Source: Kocuria carniphila
Lineage (GTDB): Bacteria; Actinomycetota; Actinomycetes; Actinomycetales; Micrococcaceae
Length of the DNA stretch: 64,000 bases
Direction: 5' to 3'
Assembly (NCBI RefSeq): GCF_004136555.1
Contig: NZ_NOIT01000001.1
Location: 124,001 to 188,000 of the forward strand
The position numbers and the translations under genes are program-made. The notes under the pieces are model-generated. The model made no database searches and had not been told where the DNA came from. It worked only from the letters and a program-made list of their open reading frames with translations. This document shows positions 27,659 to 57,175 of this stretch, one piece after another. Position 1 is the first letter of the stretch; every line of letters starts with the position of its first letter.

Positions 27659-30600
27659 TCAGAGCCCTGGGCTCAGGGTGATGTCTAACTGATCGAAGAT
27701 GTTGCGTTCATCGAACCGTTCTCTCGCAAATTTTGCGGCGTCCGCCGAGAACATACGGCGTTCGTCTTCTGCACGGCTCAGACCCAATATCCGCCGGGCC
27801 ATGTGTTCCGGCGAGGGAACAAGCCACTCTCGTGGATAGATCAAGTCAGCACCTGGCCAGTCCAAGGACACAGGGACTCCCCCGGATGCGGCCACGTCCG
27901 GGAGCGTGAGGTGGAAGGACTCGTGGTCACTCAGAGAAATGCCATAGCCGATACCTCGATACCACTCGGCCATGTCATTGCCGTACGGATCAAATGCCAC
28001 CACTTCTCGACCATGGCGGTCGTTCAAAACCTTGGCCCGCTCATAGCATTCGCCGTACCAAGCCATTTCATGTTCACGCTTGAGCATCCAAGAATAATCT
28101 TCGGGACGCTTTCCTTTAACCCGAAGAGTGAAGTCAGGGTCCTCCTCCAGAATTGCCTCGAGAACACTGATCGCACGGTCCAAACGTTTCATCTGTGGCA
28201 CCATGCCCACGAAACCGATCGTCTTCGCAGCCTTGGGGGTCTTCTCCAAGGCAAGCATCTCTGTGCGAACGATATTCGGAATGACGCTTGTGATGGAACG
28301 TGGAACTCCGTGACTTGCTATGGCACCCTCGCGCATCAGTTCACTCACGAAGATATACTGATCCACTGACCCGTGGTTGATTTTGCGCAGGTAAAGACCG
28401 CGTAATTCTTGTGCATGCACTCTAACCACCAGACGGTGTTTCTCACTCACATGCTGCGAATACCAAACCGCGTTGCCAAGACCCCATTCGCAGAACACCG
28501 TGTCGGCTCGTGACAGCAACTCACGTGACCGCTGCTCATCATGGTGGGCATGATTCTCCCATTGGTCCACTAAGACAGACACGCCGAGCTCGCGCAGGTG
28601 CTCAATCCAAGATTGAGCAAATTTGAGATCGTGCCCCGCGATCAATACCGTTCCCGTTTGCTCAGGAGAGATCTTGGAGGAGGCCACGAGGACCAGTTCA
28701 CTGTGTGTGTCCGGTTCCTCGGGCACCGTGAGCGTCAAAGTTTTCAGACCGGGAGCTTGCAAGGCTGCTGCGACTGAACCCTGGCACAATTCGGACCTCG
28801 CAACGAGACCGGAGGTGGCTAGAGTGTTCTCCCCCGGTACCGCGAAGTGTCTGGCATCCTCATCATCATTAAACTCCTGCGATGTCAGTTTCTGCCACTG
28901 TCCCCAGCGGGTAGCCTGCAGCAGATCCTCCGCCCACGTCCGAGAGTATTTCTCGGGCAGGGATCCCCAGAACTCGACGTCATCGGGTATGGGTGACGAA
29001 GTGGACAGTACTCGAACGCCGTGTTCCTCCAGAGCGGCCCGAGCGTCGTCGTCATTACCGGAAAGGCGCACGGTAACGGGAGGCACCGATTGACGAATGA
29101 TCTCATTGACTTGTTCCGGCGTAACGTCGGCGCCCCACGAGGGAAGGGCGAACCCTGCCACTCCAATTCCTGCCGTGCGAGCCAAGATCACAAGGGCAGT
29201 ATCCACGGTATGAGAGCGCAACACGGTGCGCAGCTGCAACCACACTTCCGAGAGGCGTTCACGGGGATCCGAGGTCCAAGCGGACAACAGCGCCTTTAAG
29301 TAATACTCATTGTTAGTGCAGGGAATGGCGCCGTCGAACGTCTCAGCCACACCGCGGCTCCAGCCGGAGAGTACAGCGCCACCGCAGGCGGCGATCTCCA
29401 CAACCCTGCGAGAGAACATGCTGGGTGAATAAGCTACGGAATTGACGTTCAAGCTGGCTGCGTGCGCACGGTAGCTATCAATCACCTGGTTGTAAGGCAA
29501 CGCACCGCGAACAGAGGACTTGAACTCGGCCGGAAATTGATATGGCGAATCCGGATATGCTGCCTGCCGATCATAGATGGACAGGCCGTACGGCTTCGCC
29601 GTTCGCAACAGAGTTGCGAGTTGATGAGAACGCTCCGCGTACCGGTCACCGTAATACGTTCCCGCGTAAGACACGGTGTTCTCGAGAGGGCGTCGACCAG
29701 GCAGTGGATTGTGAATAGCGGGCTGCGCGTAGAACGGCAAGGAAGATGCCGTGATAGCTCGGCCCCCGCTCAAAGTGCGGGCCTGCGAAAGGTACTCCGG
29801 AATCATGTCAGCGTCCGTGGTGAAGACATGGTCGCACAACGCGCCAGTGCGACGGAAACGATTGATGTGAACCGGATCCTCTTTATTCCAAAAGACCGTT
29901 GGAACGTTCGCGTCCCGGCAGCGTCTGAGTAGATATCGGAACGGCTCATGTTCTTCGTCAGAGTAATAACCCACCTTCCGGTGCCATTGCCCCGCATTGC
30001 CGCTCCATGCTGACTCGATGAACACCAAATCCAGATTCTCAGTACGGATTTGGTCCGCATAAGTCTCAACATCGAGCGGGACGATCGTGGCTGAACGGTT
30101 CAGAGTCTCTGTGGTGAACTCGTCCGCGATGAGCCCGATGCGGAGATCTTGTACCTGTCGGCCGGCCGTAGCCTGTCCGTCGTAATTTTCAGACGCCAAA
30201 CGGTAAGTTTCACGAATTGAGTCACCGAGGTGCACCCACTGGCGCTCGTCGACGGCCCATAGGCGTGCGGCCTGCCCCATAGCGATCCGTTCTTCCCGAT
30301 TCTCGATGAGTCGCTGAAGCGCGTTTGCTAATGATTTGGGGTCACCGGCCACACTGAGTAGACCTCTAGAGCCCTCGTGAGTGCCTTGATCAGCCCCAAC
30401 CAGAACTCGGTGCGGGGAGACGTCAGAAAGTACAACGGGCTTCGATGCCGAGAATGCTTCAAGCGGTTTAAGCGGTGAAACCATCTCGGTTACGGGCAGG
30501 CTCAGGCGGGGGCAAGCCACAATGTCTACGCAGCTCATGACCCGGGGAATTTCAGATGAAGGCCGACGTCCGAGGAATCGGACTGTTCCCTGCAGACGGT

Positions 30601-32236
30601 TCTTCTTCTGGTATTCCTTGAGGTTGTTGTAAACGCCCCCTGCGCCGGCAATGGCCACCTGAAACTTGACCTTGCGACCGCGCAGGATATTCGCTGCTTG
30701 GAGCAAGGTATGAAGACCTTCATACTCCACAAAAGACCCTGCGAAACCAATGACGGGTACGTCTGTGCGGATGCCGTGACTCTTGGCATACACCTCATCC
30801 CGGGGCAGTGGAAGGAATGCCCCGGTATCCACCCCATTGGGCAGCAACGAAATGCGATCGGCCGGGACTCCTCGACGGACCAGCTCTTCCTTTACCTCTC
30901 GAGTAATGGCTAGAACCGCATCTGCTTCTCGAGCAACGAATGATTCGAGGAATGCTTGGTTGCCGTAGCGCTCGGTCTTTTCCCATCCAGGTTTGGTGGA
31001 GGCTTCCGTAACCTCCCACAAGCCCCGCACCTCATACACGAACGGCAGTCCAAGACGTCGAGCCGCAATGAGTGCAGGTAGGGCATTGAGGTAGTTCGAT
31101 GCTGCGTGAATCACGGACGGCCTTGACAGTTTAGCTTGCCGAACCACGGTATCTGCCGCCACATTGATGTATTCGTGGGGACCCTGAGCAGAAATGTTCC
31201 CCTCAGGAAGGTGAACCCAATCGACACCGTGACGATTCACCACATGTCGTCGTTTGCGGGGTTTGGCATCTGCGGTTGAAATGTCCCAAGGGTACCCAGA
31301 TCGTCCCAGAACCGTGACATCCGCGCCAGCAGCTTTCAAGCCCGCGACCACACCTTCGGTGCGAACTGAGTAACCGTTGGAGTGGAAGATGGGGGTTGAG
31401 TACGCGCAATAGAGCACGCGTTTATGTTCCGGGTGGTAAGCGGCTCCTCGCGCGCGCTGTGGTACGAACCGTTCTAGATTTTCCCGAAGCGCTACTGTCC
31501 CCAGAATACGCTCAGCAAGTGCACGTTGACGTGAATTTAGATCATTGACCAAATCGCGGTGATTACGGATCAATCGCTCGGCGCGGTTGATTTCGCCTTC
31601 CCGATACCACAATCTGTTGAGGCAATCCGCCAAACGAGGTGCATCCGGATTTTCGTGGAAGGCTTTCAGCACCTCACTAGTATCCATCTCCGAAACCACC
31701 CGTTCGGGTGCCTCACTTGGTGAAGAAGCCTCAGGATCCTGCTCCGCCGTCGGATCCATGTCACGAGGAATATCGGAGGACTCGGCCTCGCTAGCTTCCT
31801 CGGCATCCTGAGGGGCGCTGATTGGGGCGAGATCTGCGGACGAAGATGGATGTACGGTACGCGGTTGTTCTCCAGGCGCGTCTTCGCGACCGCCTGAACT
31901 AGGAGTGAACACGAGGGACTCCGGGACTTCCTCGGCATCCGAGCTGATTATTTCGCCCACAGATTCCGTGTCACTTTTAGGGGCTACACCCGATGCCCAG
32001 GCATTCTTGTAAACAGCAAGTTCTTCGGCAAGCTGCCGGTTTTCCTGGACAAGAGCACGATGCTGACGGGACACCGTCGCGAGCTTAGCGTTCTGTGCTT
32101 TCGACTTGGCCTGGAGACTGCGGTTCGAAGCGGTGGCGCGTTCTAGAGCGTCAAAGATGGCACGTGAATCACTCGCTGCCTGGGCATACACAAGTTCTTT
32201 AAGATGACGAGGATCGCGCCGTTCGTCTGGATGCAT
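27659..32236 (-). CDS. Giant multidomain glycosyltransferase (coiled coil + GT4 + CgeB-like + GT4)
   Basis: About 1525 residues. Order: N-terminal coiled coil (to about 85), an acidic Ser/Glu/Pro-rich linker (to about 190), a helical spacer, a GT4 module (YCAYSTPIFHSNGYSVR, VIHAASNYLNALP, VYEVRGLWE, SLLPNGVDTGAF, SPLKPLEAFSASKPVVLSD), a CgeB-like module (LRIGLIADEF, LVFIESAWSGNAGQW, VFWNKEDPVHINRF, HVFTTDADMIPEY) and a C-terminal GT4-like module (TVLIAGHDLKFAQSW, VIPNIVRTEML, TIGFVGMVPQMKRLDRA). I chose ATG 32236 because AGGAG at 32245-32249 lies 8 bases upstream; the open GTG at 32278 would place a 12-base homopolymer inside the coding region. No membrane segment. Probably a processive or multi-linkage polymer synthase; specificities unknown. 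Confidence 0.88.
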   Translation of the reverse strand: MHPDERRDPRHLKELVYAQAASDSRAIFDALERATASNRSLQAKSKAQNAKLATVSRQHRALVQENRQLAEELAVYKNAWASGVAPKSDTESVGEIISSDAEEVPESLVFTPSSGGREDAPGEQPRTVHPSSSADLAPISAPQDAEEASEAESSDIPRDMDPTAEQDPEASSPSEAPERVVSEMDTSEVLKAFHENPDAPRLADCLNRLWYREGEINRAERLIRNHRDLVNDLNSRQRALAERILGTVALRENLERFVPQRARGAAYHPEHKRVLYCAYSTPIFHSNGYSVRTEGVVAGLKAAGADVTVLGRSGYPWDISTADAKPRKRRHVVNRHGVDWVHLPEGNISAQGPHEYINVAADTVVRQAKLSRPSVIHAASNYLNALPALIAARRLGLPFVYEVRGLWEVTEASTKPGWEKTERYGNQAFLESFVAREADAVLAITREVKEELVRRGVPADRISLLPNGVDTGAFLPLPRDEVYAKSHGIRTDVPVIGFAGSFVEYEGLHTLLQAANILRGRKVKFQVAIAGAGGVYNNLKEYQKKNRLQGTVRFLGRRPSSEIPRVMSCVDIVACPRLSLPVTEMVSPLKPLEAFSASKPVVLSDVSPHRVLVGADQGTHEGSRGLLSVAGDPKSLANALQRLIENREERIAMGQAARLWAVDERQWVHLGDSIRETYRLASENYDGQATAGRQVQDLRIGLIADEFTTETLNRSATIVPLDVETYADQIRTENLDLVFIESAWSGNAGQWHRKVGYYSDEEHEPFRYLLRRCRDANVPTVFWNKEDPVHINRFRRTGALCDHVFTTDADMIPEYLSQARTLSGGRAITASSLPFYAQPAIHNPLPGRRPLENTVSYAGTYYGDRYAERSHQLATLLRTAKPYGLSIYDRQAAYPDSPYQFPAEFKSSVRGALPYNQVIDSYRAHAASLNVNSVAYSPSMFSRRVVEIAACGGAVLSGWSRGVAETFDGAIPCTNNEYYLKALLSAWTSDPRERLSEVWLQLRTVLRSHTVDTALVILARTAGIGVAGFALPSWGADVTPEQVNEIIRQSVPPVTVRLSGNDDDARAALEEHGVRVLSTSSPIPDDVEFWGSLPEKYSRTWAEDLLQATRWGQWQKLTSQEFNDDEDARHFAVPGENTLATSGLVARSELCQGSVAAALQAPGLKTLTLTVPEEPDTHSELVLVASSKISPEQTGTVLIAGHDLKFAQSWIEHLRELGVSVLVDQWENHAHHDEQRSRELLSRADTVFCEWGLGNAVWYSQHVSEKHRLVVRVHAQELRGLYLRKINHGSVDQYIFVSELMREGAIASHGVPRSITSVIPNIVRTEMLALEKTPKAAKTIGFVGMVPQMKRLDRAISVLEAILEEDPDFTLRVKGKRPEDYSWMLKREHEMAWYGECYERAKVLNDRHGREVVAFDPYGNDMAEWYRGIGYGISLSDHESFHLTLPDVAASGGVPVSLDWPGADLIYPREWLVPSPEHMARRILGLSRAEDERRMFSADAAKFARERFDERNIFDQLDITLSPGL

Positions 32237-32254
32237 CGGGGGTGCTCCTGCGGT

Positions 32255-32266
32255 GGGGGGGGGGGG
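32255..32266. repeat. Homopolymeric G12/C12 tract
   Basis: Twelve consecutive G on the plus strand (C on the coding strand), 19 bases upstream of the preferred ATG of the giant glycosyltransferase and inside the frame of the alternative GTG start. Tracts this long are prone to slipped-strand length change, so expression or reading frame could vary between cells. Confidence 0.75.
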
Positions 32267-32324
32267 TATGGCTGACACATCTGTTGGGGGATGACTTCAG
32301 TGTCGACTGAGGTGAATAACGGGT

Positions 32325-32358: not shown

Positions 32359-33606
32359 TTACCGCCAGAGGCCCTTGGTATCCACCACGGTCTTGCCCTT
32401 CAACGACGCCGCGGGAATGGTCTTAAACTCGTCGTGATCAACCAGCAGAAGAACAACATCCGCGCGCTTGATCGCATCCGCATATTCTGCGAACTCCACA
32501 TTGGGCATACCCTGCAGTGCCTTGGGCAACTCGCCGACGTTGGGTTCGACAGCCAATACTGTCGCGTGGTCAACGTGCTCGGCCAAATCCTTGGTGATGT
32601 TGAGCGCCGGCGACTCGCGAAGGTCATCGATGTTGGGCTTGAATGCCAGACCCAGAGCAGCGATCACCGGAGAATCGATGTTCTTAACAGCCTCATCGAC
32701 CTTGTTGATTACCCACTTGGGCTTGCCGTCGTTGACCTCACGAGCCGTACGAATGATGTTGGAGTTCTCGCGGTCAGAAGACACGATGAACCAGGGGTCA
32801 ACGGCGATGCAGTGACCACCCACGCCGGGGCCCGGCTGCAGGATGTTCACACGGGGGTGATGGTTAGCCAGCTCGATGAGCTCCCACACGTCGATTCCCA
32901 GGTTGTCAGCGATCAACGAAAGCTCATTGGCAAATGCGATGTTCACATCGCGGAAGGAGTTCTCGGTGAGCTTGGCCATCTCCGCAGTCACATCGTCCGT
33001 CGCAAGCAATTCGCCCTCACAGAACGAGGCGTACACCTCGGTTGCGCGGCGAGCGGCCTCGGGAGTGCGACCGCCGATAATGCGGTCATTGCTCATGAGC
33101 TCTTCCATCGCCTTACCAGGAAGGATGCGCTCGGGGCAGTAAGCGAAATGGATCACGGGCTTGCCGTTTGCACCGTCGACGGAGAGGTCCGGGCGCAGTT
33201 CCAGGATCTTGTCCGCAAGTTTCTGTGTTGTCTTGGGCGGGGAGGTCGATTCGAGGATGACCACTTCGTCGCCTTGCAGCTGAGGAGCAATCGACTCTGC
33301 TGCGGACATGATGTACGACAGGTCGCCTTCGTAGTTGTCCTTGAAGGGGGTGGGAACCGCAATGACGAACGCGTTGCCCTGCTGCATCTCGGTGGAGGCG
33401 GTGAGCTGACCACTATCGACAGCCTTCTTGAGCTGTTCTTCCAACCCGGGTTCAACGATGGTGACTTCACCGCGCTGGATGCGCTCTACGGCGGAGGCAT
33501 TGACGTCCACACCGTGGACCCGTACTCCGTGATTGGCCATGACCACGGCAGTGGGGAGACCGATGTACCCGAGTCCGACAAAGACAACTTCCAAAGGATT
33601 GCTCAT
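32359..33606 (-). CDS. wecC: UDP-N-acetyl-D-mannosaminuronate dehydrogenase
   Basis: Converts UDP-ManNAc, the WecB product, into UDP-ManNAcA with two NAD+. The 415-residue protein shows the Rossmann loop GLGYIG (11-16), VPTPF, STSPPKTT, the family-specific YCPERILPGKA (157-166), TENSFRDVNIAFANELS and the active-site GPGVGGHCIAVDPWFIV with Cys266. YCPERI and GGHCIAVDP separate WecC-type enzymes from UDP-glucose dehydrogenases. Shine-Dalgarno AAGGTGAGG lies just before the ATG. It seems monocistronic: an AT-rich promoter-like region upstream and a strong hairpin downstream. With wecB it strongly implies ManNAcA in the polymer made here, as in Micrococcus teichuronic acid. Confidence 0.95.
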   Translation of the reverse strand: MSNPLEVVFVGLGYIGLPTAVVMANHGVRVHGVDVNASAVERIQRGEVTIVEPGLEEQLKKAVDSGQLTASTEMQQGNAFVIAVPTPFKDNYEGDLSYIMSAAESIAPQLQGDEVVILESTSPPKTTQKLADKILELRPDLSVDGANGKPVIHFAYCPERILPGKAMEELMSNDRIIGGRTPEAARRATEVYASFCEGELLATDDVTAEMAKLTENSFRDVNIAFANELSLIADNLGIDVWELIELANHHPRVNILQPGPGVGGHCIAVDPWFIVSSDRENSNIIRTAREVNDGKPKWVINKVDEAVKNIDSPVIAALGLAFKPNIDDLRESPALNITKDLAEHVDHATVLAVEPNVGELPKALQGMPNVEFAEYADAIKRADVVLLLVDHDEFKTIPAASLKGKTVVDTKGLWR

Positions 33607-37330: not shown

Positions 37331-39155
37331 GCGTCTCCTCGGGGGTCAGGATGCGGTCGTTCTGGGGCGCGGGGGTTCGCCCAGTCATTTCACCGTACCG
37401 CGTCACGGTCTCTTTCGCGGTCACCGCCCACGTGCGATTTTTCAGCGCCCACTCCCGGCCTGCCCTGGCAAGCCTTTCGCGGGTCTGCGGGTCACGTGCC
37501 AACTCGAGCAACGCCGCAGCCAACGATTCCGGATCATCCGGCGGGGTCAGCAATCCAGTCACACCGTGGTCGATCACTTCACGCAACGCGGGCAGGTCGC
37601 TAGCTACCACCGCTGTCCGGGAGGCCAGTGCCTCCACCGGTTTCAGCGGCGTCACCGCGCGGGTCACCGTGCGATCCTTACGCGGCACCACGAACACGTC
37701 GAGTGACCTGAAGTACTCAACCGCTTCGGATCGATCAACTCGTCCACAAAATTTCACATGGTCTTGAATTCCCAGGTCGGAGACCAGTTGTTGCAGTCCC
37801 GGGCGGGCCACACCGTCCCCCACGATTACCGCGAGAATGGACGGCACGCTCTTGCGGGCAATGTCCACCGCACGCACTAGATCGTCCAGGCCTTCGTAGT
37901 CGACCACCGAGGTCACGGTCCCCACCAGGAACCTCTCGAGCGGCAGCCCGGTACGACGCCGCGCGCTCACCTTCTCCCCCGGCTCGTCCGTGAACTGCCC
38001 GCCCACGCCATTGGGAGCCAAGTGCACGGACAATGACGAGTCTCCGGCGATCTCTCGGACCCGATCGGCCATGTGCGTTCCGAGCGTGACAACATGGTGA
38101 GCAGATTGAAGCGCCTGCGCCTCGCGCGCTTGGAACCGGTCATAGCGAGTGGACTGCAGCGCCTCCGGTGACCTGGTGGACGCCCACGTATCCGCAAGCA
38201 GCCCGCGCACTTCATAGGTCCACGGAATACACAGGGCCTCCGCCACAGCCCGCACAGCCAGCGCGTTCACGTAGTGCGTGGTGGTGTGGAGAACGGAGGG
38301 ACGCACCTCGAGAGCCAACCGGAGTAAAGCATCAGCGTGCTGTTGCACGCGCCCGGTCGTAGTGGGCGCCAGGTTGAGCGGCAGGATCCGGTGGTACGGG
38401 ATCCCGTCCACCACATCTGTGCCGCGAGCCAGGACTTTACCGACTTGCACCGGGTAACCGGGGCGCGTCACCGCGTGAACGTCCCAGCCCTCGTCCTTGA
38501 TGGCGCTCAGCAGCGAGTGCGTGCGCTGGGCGTAGCCGCTGGCTGTGTGCGGTAGGGAATTGGTCACCGCGTATAGCACCGTGTTCGGCCGCGGTGCGTA
38601 CGTTCCGACCGCGGGAAGTTCGGGTTCAAATGAGCCCAGCAGGTCACGTTCTGCGGACAATCGCTTCACAAGCGACCGTTCACCGCGGGTAGCAGTCCCG
38701 GCCGAGCGGGCGGTCTCGAGAACGCCCACGGCCCCATCCACATCGCCATGGTGCCAGTTCACTCGTGCTCGGGTCGCGGAAGCACCCCGGGTTGACGCGG
38801 GTAACTCGGAGAGCAATGACTCCGTCAGGGGCAACTCCCCCATGGTCAGGGACACTTCCGCGCAGCGACGACGAACGGCAACACCCGCGGACCCCGCAGC
38901 CGAGCGCAAGGTGGCGGCAGCGGCGTCGTCGTTGCCCAAGATGTGAAGACCCGTGCCGCGTGCGGCAGGAAACCTGCTGGCCGGCAAGCGGGACAGGCCC
39001 TGGGCAACCGGCCGAACCACCCGGGATGGCAGTCGACGCGATACTTGCAGGCAGAACACCACGGGGTCATCGGTTATGTGGTGAGCCACCGTGGACGCCG
39101 TGATCCACGCGTTGGTCGCGAGCTCGCGCACGCGTTGCCCGGAGGGTCCCCGCAT
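37314..39155 (-). CDS. Glycosyltransferase, GT4 family with helical N-terminal domain
   Basis: A 613-residue protein. The first 190 residues are alanine- and arginine-rich helices with a TPR-like look (AEVSLTMGELPLTESLLSEL). The GT4 domain follows: NTVLYAVTNSLPHTASGYA, VLHTTTHYVNALAVRA, TYEVRGLLADTWAS, VHLAPNGVGGQF, FLVGTVTSVVDYEGLDDLVRAV, AVIVGDGVARPGLQQL and VTPLKPVEALASRTAVVASDLPALREV with the donor-binding Glu. It overlaps the upstream GT by one base and the permease by 17, at the head of the export operon. It shares the EVRGL and LKPVEA signatures with the other GT4 modules of the locus. Confidence 0.9.
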   Translation of the reverse strand: MRGPSGQRVRELATNAWITASTVAHHITDDPVVFCLQVSRRLPSRVVRPVAQGLSRLPASRFPAARGTGLHILGNDDAAAATLRSAAGSAGVAVRRRCAEVSLTMGELPLTESLLSELPASTRGASATRARVNWHHGDVDGAVGVLETARSAGTATRGERSLVKRLSAERDLLGSFEPELPAVGTYAPRPNTVLYAVTNSLPHTASGYAQRTHSLLSAIKDEGWDVHAVTRPGYPVQVGKVLARGTDVVDGIPYHRILPLNLAPTTTGRVQQHADALLRLALEVRPSVLHTTTHYVNALAVRAVAEALCIPWTYEVRGLLADTWASTRSPEALQSTRYDRFQAREAQALQSAHHVVTLGTHMADRVREIAGDSSLSVHLAPNGVGGQFTDEPGEKVSARRRTGLPLERFLVGTVTSVVDYEGLDDLVRAVDIARKSVPSILAVIVGDGVARPGLQQLVSDLGIQDHVKFCGRVDRSEAVEYFRSLDVFVVPRKDRTVTRAVTPLKPVEALASRTAVVASDLPALREVIDHGVTGLLTPPDDPESLAAALLELARDPQTRERLARAGREWALKNRTWAVTAKETVTRYGEMTGRTPAPQNDRILTPEETRERQS

Positions 39156-40465
39156 CAGGCGGTTCTCCGGAACTGCCGCGATTGCCGGGCCACCTTCACG
39201 GCGGCACGGCCCATGCGCGCGATGCGCTGCGTCACCGACTGTTGGGGCTGGGCTTGGTGTTCGCGGATGGTCTGTCGCAACAGGTCACCGTAGCGGCAGG
39301 ACAGATCCGAGTAGTTGGCGTGGGACTTGGCCCATTCGCGCCCAGTTCCCGCAGGCTGCAATCGGGATCGATCCGCGGCCAGCTCCCGCCAGAGTTGGGC
39401 GATTTCCTGAGGCTTGCATTCCACGATGTCGCCTTCGCCGGCCTCCGTCAGCACGTTGGCGGCTTCACCGCGCACGATGCCCGTGATGTGCCGACCCACT
39501 GCCAGAACCTCGTACGTCTTGGACGGGATGGTGTCCTCGAAAGACTTCCAATCATCGCGCAGGGAAATCACCAGAGAATCGGCCTCCTGGTACCGGGCAA
39601 AGACCGCCTCACGGTATTCAGGAGGCAGGAAACGAACTGTGGCGCCGAGTTCCATGGCCAGTCGGCGAAGCGCCGGCTTCTGACTACCGTGGCCCACGAG
39701 CGTGAGTCGCATGTCGTCACCGACCAGGGCGGCTGCGCGAATGAGCACGTCCAAGGCCTGAGATTCCCCGTGGTTACCCAGATAGAGCACCTCGAGCCGC
39801 TCACGCTGCACCGGAGGTGCCTCGAGGCGGGGTGTGCGATCCATTTGAATGCCGTTGCGTACCGTGACCACATCGGCGACGCCGCGTTCTCGCAACGTGC
39901 GTTCGAACCCTTCGGTCACGGTGACCACCAGGTCCGCACGATTCTGCACGTACTCCACGGCGCTGTTGATCACTGATTTGGAACCGCCGCGCACCAGTGA
40001 GGCGTCCTCGGCCAGATTGGGCCACGCGTCCCGCATTTCGACGACGAGCGGCAGGCCCTTGAACCGGGCCACCAGTAACGCCGACCCCAGCAAAGGCAAC
40101 GACGGCGCCGTGACCAACACGGCGTCCTGGCGGCCCGTGGCTACACCCCGCAGCACCGACCCGGCAGCCCCAACCAGCTGATTGGCCAGTTTGAAGACCC
40201 TGTTGTCCCCCAAGAGCAAATGCGGCACCCGGTAAATCTTCTCGCCCAGGAAGCCCGGTTGCGCCCGCCAGGCACGTCCCTTGGTGTCCGAGGAGTAGTC
40301 CGGGCCCGGCCCGTAATGAGCCACCGGAGCCACCACGGACACCGCCCAGCCCTGATCGCGCATGTTGCGGATCAGTGACATCCAGCGGCGCTGGGGTGGG
40401 GAATGCTCCGGCCAGTAGGAACTGGTCAGCAGTAGCAGACGTACGTCGGTTTCAGGGGGCTGCAT
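39155..40465 (-). CDS. Glycosyltransferase, GT4 family (WbuB-like)
   Basis: A 436-residue GT-B glycosyltransferase. It begins VRLLLLTSSYWPEHSPPQRRWMSLIRNM, the start typical of WbuB-like GT4 enzymes, with VSVVAPVAHYGPG, PLVVEMRDAWP, LYLGNHGESQALDVLIRAA, LTLVGHGSQKPALRRL and SKTYEVLAVGRHITGIVRGE. The ATG is first in this operon and its stop overlaps the next start by one base (TGATG). An 87-base gap separates it from the LCP gene upstream. Members of this group often transfer an N-acetylhexosamine early in polymer assembly; the sugar is not determined here. Confidence 0.9.
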   Translation of the reverse strand: MQPPETDVRLLLLTSSYWPEHSPPQRRWMSLIRNMRDQGWAVSVVAPVAHYGPGPDYSSDTKGRAWRAQPGFLGEKIYRVPHLLLGDNRVFKLANQLVGAAGSVLRGVATGRQDAVLVTAPSLPLLGSALLVARFKGLPLVVEMRDAWPNLAEDASLVRGGSKSVINSAVEYVQNRADLVVTVTEGFERTLRERGVADVVTVRNGIQMDRTPRLEAPPVQRERLEVLYLGNHGESQALDVLIRAAALVGDDMRLTLVGHGSQKPALRRLAMELGATVRFLPPEYREAVFARYQEADSLVISLRDDWKSFEDTIPSKTYEVLAVGRHITGIVRGEAANVLTEAGEGDIVECKPQEIAQLWRELAADRSRLQPAGTGREWAKSHANYSDLSCRYGDLLRQTIREHQAQPQQSVTQRIARMGRAAVKVARQSRQFRRTA

Positions 40466-57089: not shown

Positions 57090-57175
57090 TGCGCGAGGGG
57101 GGACTTGAACCCCCACCCTCTAATACGAGGACTAGCACCTCAAGCTAGCGCGTCTGCCTATTCCGCCACCCGCGC
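57090..57175 (-). tRNA. tRNA-Leu (GAG)
   Basis: An 86-nt class II tRNA on the minus strand. Acceptor GCGCGGG pairs with CTCGCGC (one G-U), discriminator A73. The anticodon stem CTAGC/GCTAG encloses loop TTGAGGT with anticodon GAG, decoding CUC and CUU. A long variable arm is present and the T arm includes GGTTCAAGTCC. CCA is not encoded. The terminator lies directly downstream. Confidence 0.96.

Follow-up and report, generated by a model that had tools for sequence, protein, structure and literature searches.

The window analysed here is a stretch of 64,000 nucleotides from the genome of Kocuria carniphila. On its minus strand a ugd-type gene is followed, after a gap of 122 nt, by a gene encoding a 1525-amino-acid protein with glycosyltransferase regions (Table 1). 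The order on this strand is ugd, a 12-bp hairpin, a C-rich stretch, a run of twelve cytosines (C12), ACCGC, the Shine-Dalgarno sequence (SD) AGGAG, CACCCCCG and the ATG at 32236. A run of twelve identical bases and an SD had been described in an earlier note on this DNA; both were found in place, the former as G12 at 32255 to 32266 on the plus strand and the latter at 32249 to 32245 on the minus strand. With the glycosyltransferase gene on the minus strand, the twelve G serve as template, and an mRNA would carry C12. The ATG named there is a real start codon, located at 32236 to 32234 and not at 32237. The proteins of the nearest relatives start with MHPDE at this ATG, and CAGGAGCAC..GATGCATCC is conserved. 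Because the tract precedes the start codon, a change in tract length shifts neither the reading frame nor the distance between SD and ATG.

Genes on the same strand in the neighbourhood encode an ABC transporter ATPase and its ABC-2 permease, further glycosyltransferases and an LCP (LytR-CpsA-Psr) protein, a composition suggestive of a wall-polysaccharide type cluster. The closest named relative is Kocuria sp. cx-455 (83–84% amino-acid identity). The tract as scar of a rearrangement was ruled out, since ugd directly precedes the glycosyltransferase gene in sister species as well. In another Kocuria genome (G009) two copies of a ugd homologue are found approximately 16 kb apart (G009:C1:371748-372989 and 389203-390444), each 79% identical to the protein of the window.

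Table 1. Features at the tract and in the flanking genes (positions in the window).
Feature	Position	Strand	Remarks
ugd-type UDP-glucose/GDP-mannose dehydrogenase gene	32359..33606	-	upstream of tract; PF03721, PF00984, PF03720
Hairpin, 12-bp stem, 3-nt loop	32325..32351	-	after ugd stop codon; stem largely conserved in two sister species
GTG 32278 and next codons	32267..32278	-	open frame only; rejected as start
C12 tract, coding sense (G12 on plus strand)	32255..32266	-	gap ahead of glycosyltransferase gene
Shine-Dalgarno AGGAG	32245..32249	-	5 bases downstream of tract, 8 bases from ATG; kept in two sister species
Small hairpin, GGAGCA of SD region with codons 1–3 (UGC.AUCC)	32229..32248	-	predicted, three species
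ATG start codon of glycosyltransferase gene (MHPDERRD...)	32234..32236	-	
Gene for 1525-aa protein, at least two glycosyltransferase regions	27659..32236	-	PF13579/PF13439, then PF00534/PF13692; PF13524 further on

The tract is a long mononucleotide run, exceptional in its genome. Among 3,422,862 bases, 14 G/C runs of at least 7 were counted (eleven of 7, two of 8 and one of 12), and no second G/C run of at least 9 was found anywhere in the 3.42-Mb genome. Most of the 13 other runs are located within open reading frames (ORFs), while some precede one (e.g. L147 and L160). The window is poor in G/C runs and the G12 tract stands alone in it: no other G/C run of at least 7 is present, and the six overlapping G7 matches, compared to a mean of 17.4 in dinucleotide shuffles, all derive from the tract. 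G12 or C12 arose in one of 100 such shuffles (mean 0.01). In other Kocuria genomes, runs of at least 10 (40 regions) are often intergenic and lie in varied contexts, which were partly judged without a fixed rule; of the runs located elsewhere in run-rich drafts or at contig ends, L196 to L202 were inspected individually. Very long runs were seen there as well. The draft genomes G003 and G004 contain poly-G runs of 46 (L168, G003:C2:254427-254472) and 22 bases (L201 10720-10741), both possibly sequencing artefacts, and the one-contig genome G009 harbors six further G/C tracts of 17 to 23 bases (L250-L255). In the polysaccharide cluster of G007, C/G tracts are broken by N gaps (L196 14033-14069 and 18535-18571), probably at unresolved homopolymers.

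Comparison between species revealed different run lengths at the same site, namely C12 in the window, C7 in G001 (L007) and C6 in cx-455 (G018, L034). The leaders of these three align, with the C run placed between a conserved upstream part and the conserved SD and ATG. In the remaining ten of the twelve relatives printed, the run in the gap never exceeded C6, and in six of the twelve (L037, L048, L054, L059, L060 and L040) no run above C5 was present. With no long run in the remoter relatives, the C run is confined to the nearest species. In the ugd gap of G009, a C11 run precedes GAGGAG and a 131-aa ORF without Pfam match. Other leaders of the cluster behave similarly. The leader of the ABC permease, found in four of eleven genomes, contains C5 in G000 and G001 and C6 in G008; G007 has C9-N18-C10, at a place that its assembly does not resolve. 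For a second glycosyltransferase (window gene 39155–40465), the leader was found in seven of the eleven genomes looked at, with C4 (G000, G018, G001), C6 (G008, G012), C7 (G007) or C8 (G025). The leader of the LCP gene contains C6 in seven genomes, and one further genome has C7 there, the ORFs being 74–93% identical to the LCP protein of the window. The flanks of these sites ahead of the SD are otherwise much alike, a pattern which slippage gives. The differences in length between orthologous sites were recorded between species, K. carniphila being represented by one genome; such variation may represent slow divergence and need not imply switching.

The repair equipment is in line with an unstable tract. 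No match to MutS_V was obtained in the genome, while the same search was positive for 11 of the 14 genomes used as controls. A match to NucS_C is present, so that insertions and deletions are probably repaired poorly. NucS of Mycobacterium smegmatis is described as not repairing indels of 1–2 bp (PMC11551767), and for mycobacterial runs of 7–9 nt spontaneous frameshifting is given as 1e-5 to 1e-2 per CFU (PMC10159617); by analogy, Kocuria might behave likewise. The tract is likely prone to slippage, being an outlier in its genome, differing in length between orthologous sites and occurring in a genome without MutS_V match.

C is preferred to G ahead of the SD in the region around ugd. In a sample of 19 genomes (965 kb around ugd, 511 long frames), 221 frames were retained in which an SD was recognised and the leader was clean, while 289 were dropped for lack of an SD or proximity to an edge and one because of N. 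A C run of at least 6 was present in the 40 nt before the SD in 18 of the 221 leaders, a G run of this length in one; the leaders are partly orthologous, hence the counts are not independent. Control stretches of 40 nt from coding sequence gave four and one, respectively. Being strand-specific, the bias may point to an effect in the RNA: C might leave this stretch unpaired, and runs of G could resemble an SD. For longer runs the preference is modest. C10 followed by SD and ATG was detected in 21 of 295 family genomes (25 loci, hand count) compared to 3 of 295 for the reversed pattern; the corresponding figures for G10 are 13 of 295 (15 loci, hand count) and 5 of 295. When 22 of the 25 C10 loci were read, the ATG opened an ORF of at least 100 aa in 14, meaning that some of the matches are not real starts.

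Taken together, the C12 tract appears to be a species-specific expansion by slippage of an unpaired C spacer ahead of the SD, which is probably variable in length and would allow at most a graded tuning of expression; we assign this reading a probability of about 0.6. On this view, the glycosyltransferase mRNA would contain a mononucleotide microsatellite, located either in its untranslated leader or in an intercistronic spacer. Replication slippage would most likely have lengthened it from approximately C6 to C7, the size retained immediately ahead of the SD in the two nearest species. C instead of G presumably occurs at this place because the ribosome-landing region is kept unpaired in a high-GC mRNA; alternatively, G runs would not only mimic the SD, they might also mask it. 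Structure prediction leaves C12 unpaired. The tract would be transcribed and its length would vary among cells, with an effect that could be graded at most, because neither the frame nor the spacing of SD and ATG changes. The small hairpin predicted over the SD and the first codons could tie translation of the glycosyltransferase to coupling with upstream translation.

A selected contingency locus, at which tract length switches or sets the synthesis of wall polysaccharide via leader structure, mRNA decay or a repeat-binding RNA, has an appreciable but minor chance of being the correct explanation. The tract precedes a glycosyltransferase gene within a cluster of ABC transporter, LCP and glycosyltransferase genes, and long C tracts recur in the cluster of G009 (C11 in the ugd gap) and G007 (ABC permease). 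Eight loci with C10, SD and ATG were found in 24 Kocuria genomes, of which three (G000, G007 and G009) lie within approximately 30 kb of a ugd homologue; with the seed excluded, two of four loci in genomes with a ugd homologue are near ugd (P of about 0.002, calculated by hand and post hoc with a 2% neighbourhood). In contrast, enrichment of runs of at least 10 around ugd is weak and does not amount to strong clustering: six such runs were observed within approximately 30 kb of ugd compared to 3.0 expected (P = 0.08), and five compared to 3.0 after removal of the seed tract (P = 0.18). Without the run-rich drafts G010, G020 and G022, which were chosen post hoc, P was 0.02, or 0.07 minus the window tract. 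The nearest species carry C6 to C7 only, and a change in length does not alter the frame. Furthermore, the products of the genes behind C10, SD and ATG in the family include RimM, FdhD, a Band_7 protein, an HMA-domain protein, permeases of the MFS and xanthine/uracil type and a phage capsid protein. Poly-C before the SD thus appears to be a general habit in the family and not a mark of surface genes, and its presence before rimM, fdhD and permease genes speaks against a contingency locus dedicated to the surface.

If functional at all, the Kocuria tract might most resemble three systems described in other bacteria. In a study of Cutibacterium acnes (PMC4746626), 54 variable tracts are listed for 90 strains, 96% of them G/C and 66.6% located ahead of a gene's 5' end, and two are described with expression differences between strains. 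C. acnes is an actinobacterium, too; its tracts vary among strains, whereas the Kocuria tract was compared between species only, and its two expression examples concern promoters, whereas the tract studied here adjoins the SD. The variation in C. acnes followed clades and was read by the authors as slow accumulation rather than active variation, which also speaks against a contingency locus. A second actinobacterial precedent, in which a single base alters translation and which favors a contingency role, is the 7G tract in the 5'UTR of espR from Mycobacterium tuberculosis, where insertion of one base is reported to result in more EspR protein at the post-transcriptional level (PMC11898584). 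Both homopolymers are located in an untranslated leader. In espR the repeated base is G, and the tract is described as lying 144 bp from the start, at the leader's 5' end, with a G/C hairpin proposed by the authors as its mode of action; in Kocuria a C tract lies beside the SD and is predicted to be unpaired. In Helicobacter pylori, the G repeat in the tlpB-hp0102 leader is read by the sRNA RepG and tunes O-chain synthesis (PMC8295292). According to this source, the repeat comprises 12G in strain 26695, which is close to the length seen in Kocuria, and exerts graded control over a glycosyltransferase for surface polysaccharide; unlike the Kocuria tract, it is a G repeat with a known sRNA partner, and the organism belongs to a different phylum. 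Among the open-licence literature, judged by title, no relevant report on phase variation or homopolymers in Kocuria was found.

A wider reading, in which several C microsatellites ahead of the SD in Kocuria wall-polysaccharide operons would serve as translational rheostats varying the surface polymer without frameshift, is unlikely. It would cover the large glycosyltransferase, the ABC permease, the second glycosyltransferase and the LCP protein, with tract lengths drifting by slippage without MutS.

The earlier note had proposed that a change in length would alter the spacing between promoter and ribosome-binding site, which was not borne out by a promoter search limited to sigma-70/SigA-like motifs. 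On the coding strand, the range between 110 nt before the tract and 40 nt after it contains no TANNNT and a single NANNNT, approximately 35 nt upstream of the tract; a sigma-70 scan gave no match in the gap, so that the tract is not flanked by recognisable -35 and -10 elements of this type. Together with the distance of merely five bases between tract and SD, this makes it quite improbable that the tract is a promoter spacer, whose length would set the distance between promoter elements and hence transcription, even if the intergenic location would suit such a spacer and the authors of the C. acnes study place the tract HPT_37 between -10 and -35 (PMC4746626). The tract is probably located inside a transcribed leader or intercistronic RNA.

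The terminator that had been assumed upstream of the tract is present as a hairpin; a clear U-run is missing and a simple terminator scan did not report it. A C-rich unpaired stretch downstream of a hairpin without U-run, together with the statement that Rho sites are often C-rich (PMC4746626), would be compatible with a Rho-related element, in which a C-rich and G-poor leader would help Rho to bind and the length of the tract would determine how much transcription continues past ugd into the glycosyltransferase gene. We consider this highly improbable. A structured RNA family was ruled out as well, the sole Rfam match in the window at gathering thresholds being a tRNA (57090–57175).

That the tract was created or lengthened by an assembly or sequencing error is hardly to be expected. 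The assembly is a draft of 49 contigs, very long poly-G runs occur in other Kocuria drafts, several of them at contig ends, and N gaps interrupt C tracts in G007. The tract, however, is located deep within a 333-kb contig, and both of its flanks are conserved in the sister species bearing C6 to C7. Its length may be wrong by 1–2 bases; a wholly false tract is unlikely.

A frame-switching tract within the coding region, as had been suggested with GTG 32278 as start, has practically no chance of being correct: the frame is indeed open from this codon, 14 codons upstream of the ATG, but both ATG and SD, which follow the tract, are conserved. Of the five genes checked, in which the frame upstream of the ATG reaches a stop within 10 to 36 codons, two (L007 and L035) have an in-frame stop with no start codon in between, two have upstream starts elsewhere (L034 at codons -33 and -35, L029 at -21 and -34), and a start at codon -14 is found in the window only, which makes GTG 32278 very unlikely as the true start.

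For the slippage-expanded spacer favored here, the consequences depend on whether its length varies and matters. If so, tuning by leader repeats as in H. pylori and M. tuberculosis would extend to Kocuria and to wall-polysaccharide genes, and the series from C4 to C12 ahead of the SD would make both slippage and its translational effect directly measurable. If the tract does not matter, it would be a clear case of a high-GC genome without MutS gathering a homopolymer where C runs are tolerated, namely in leaders.
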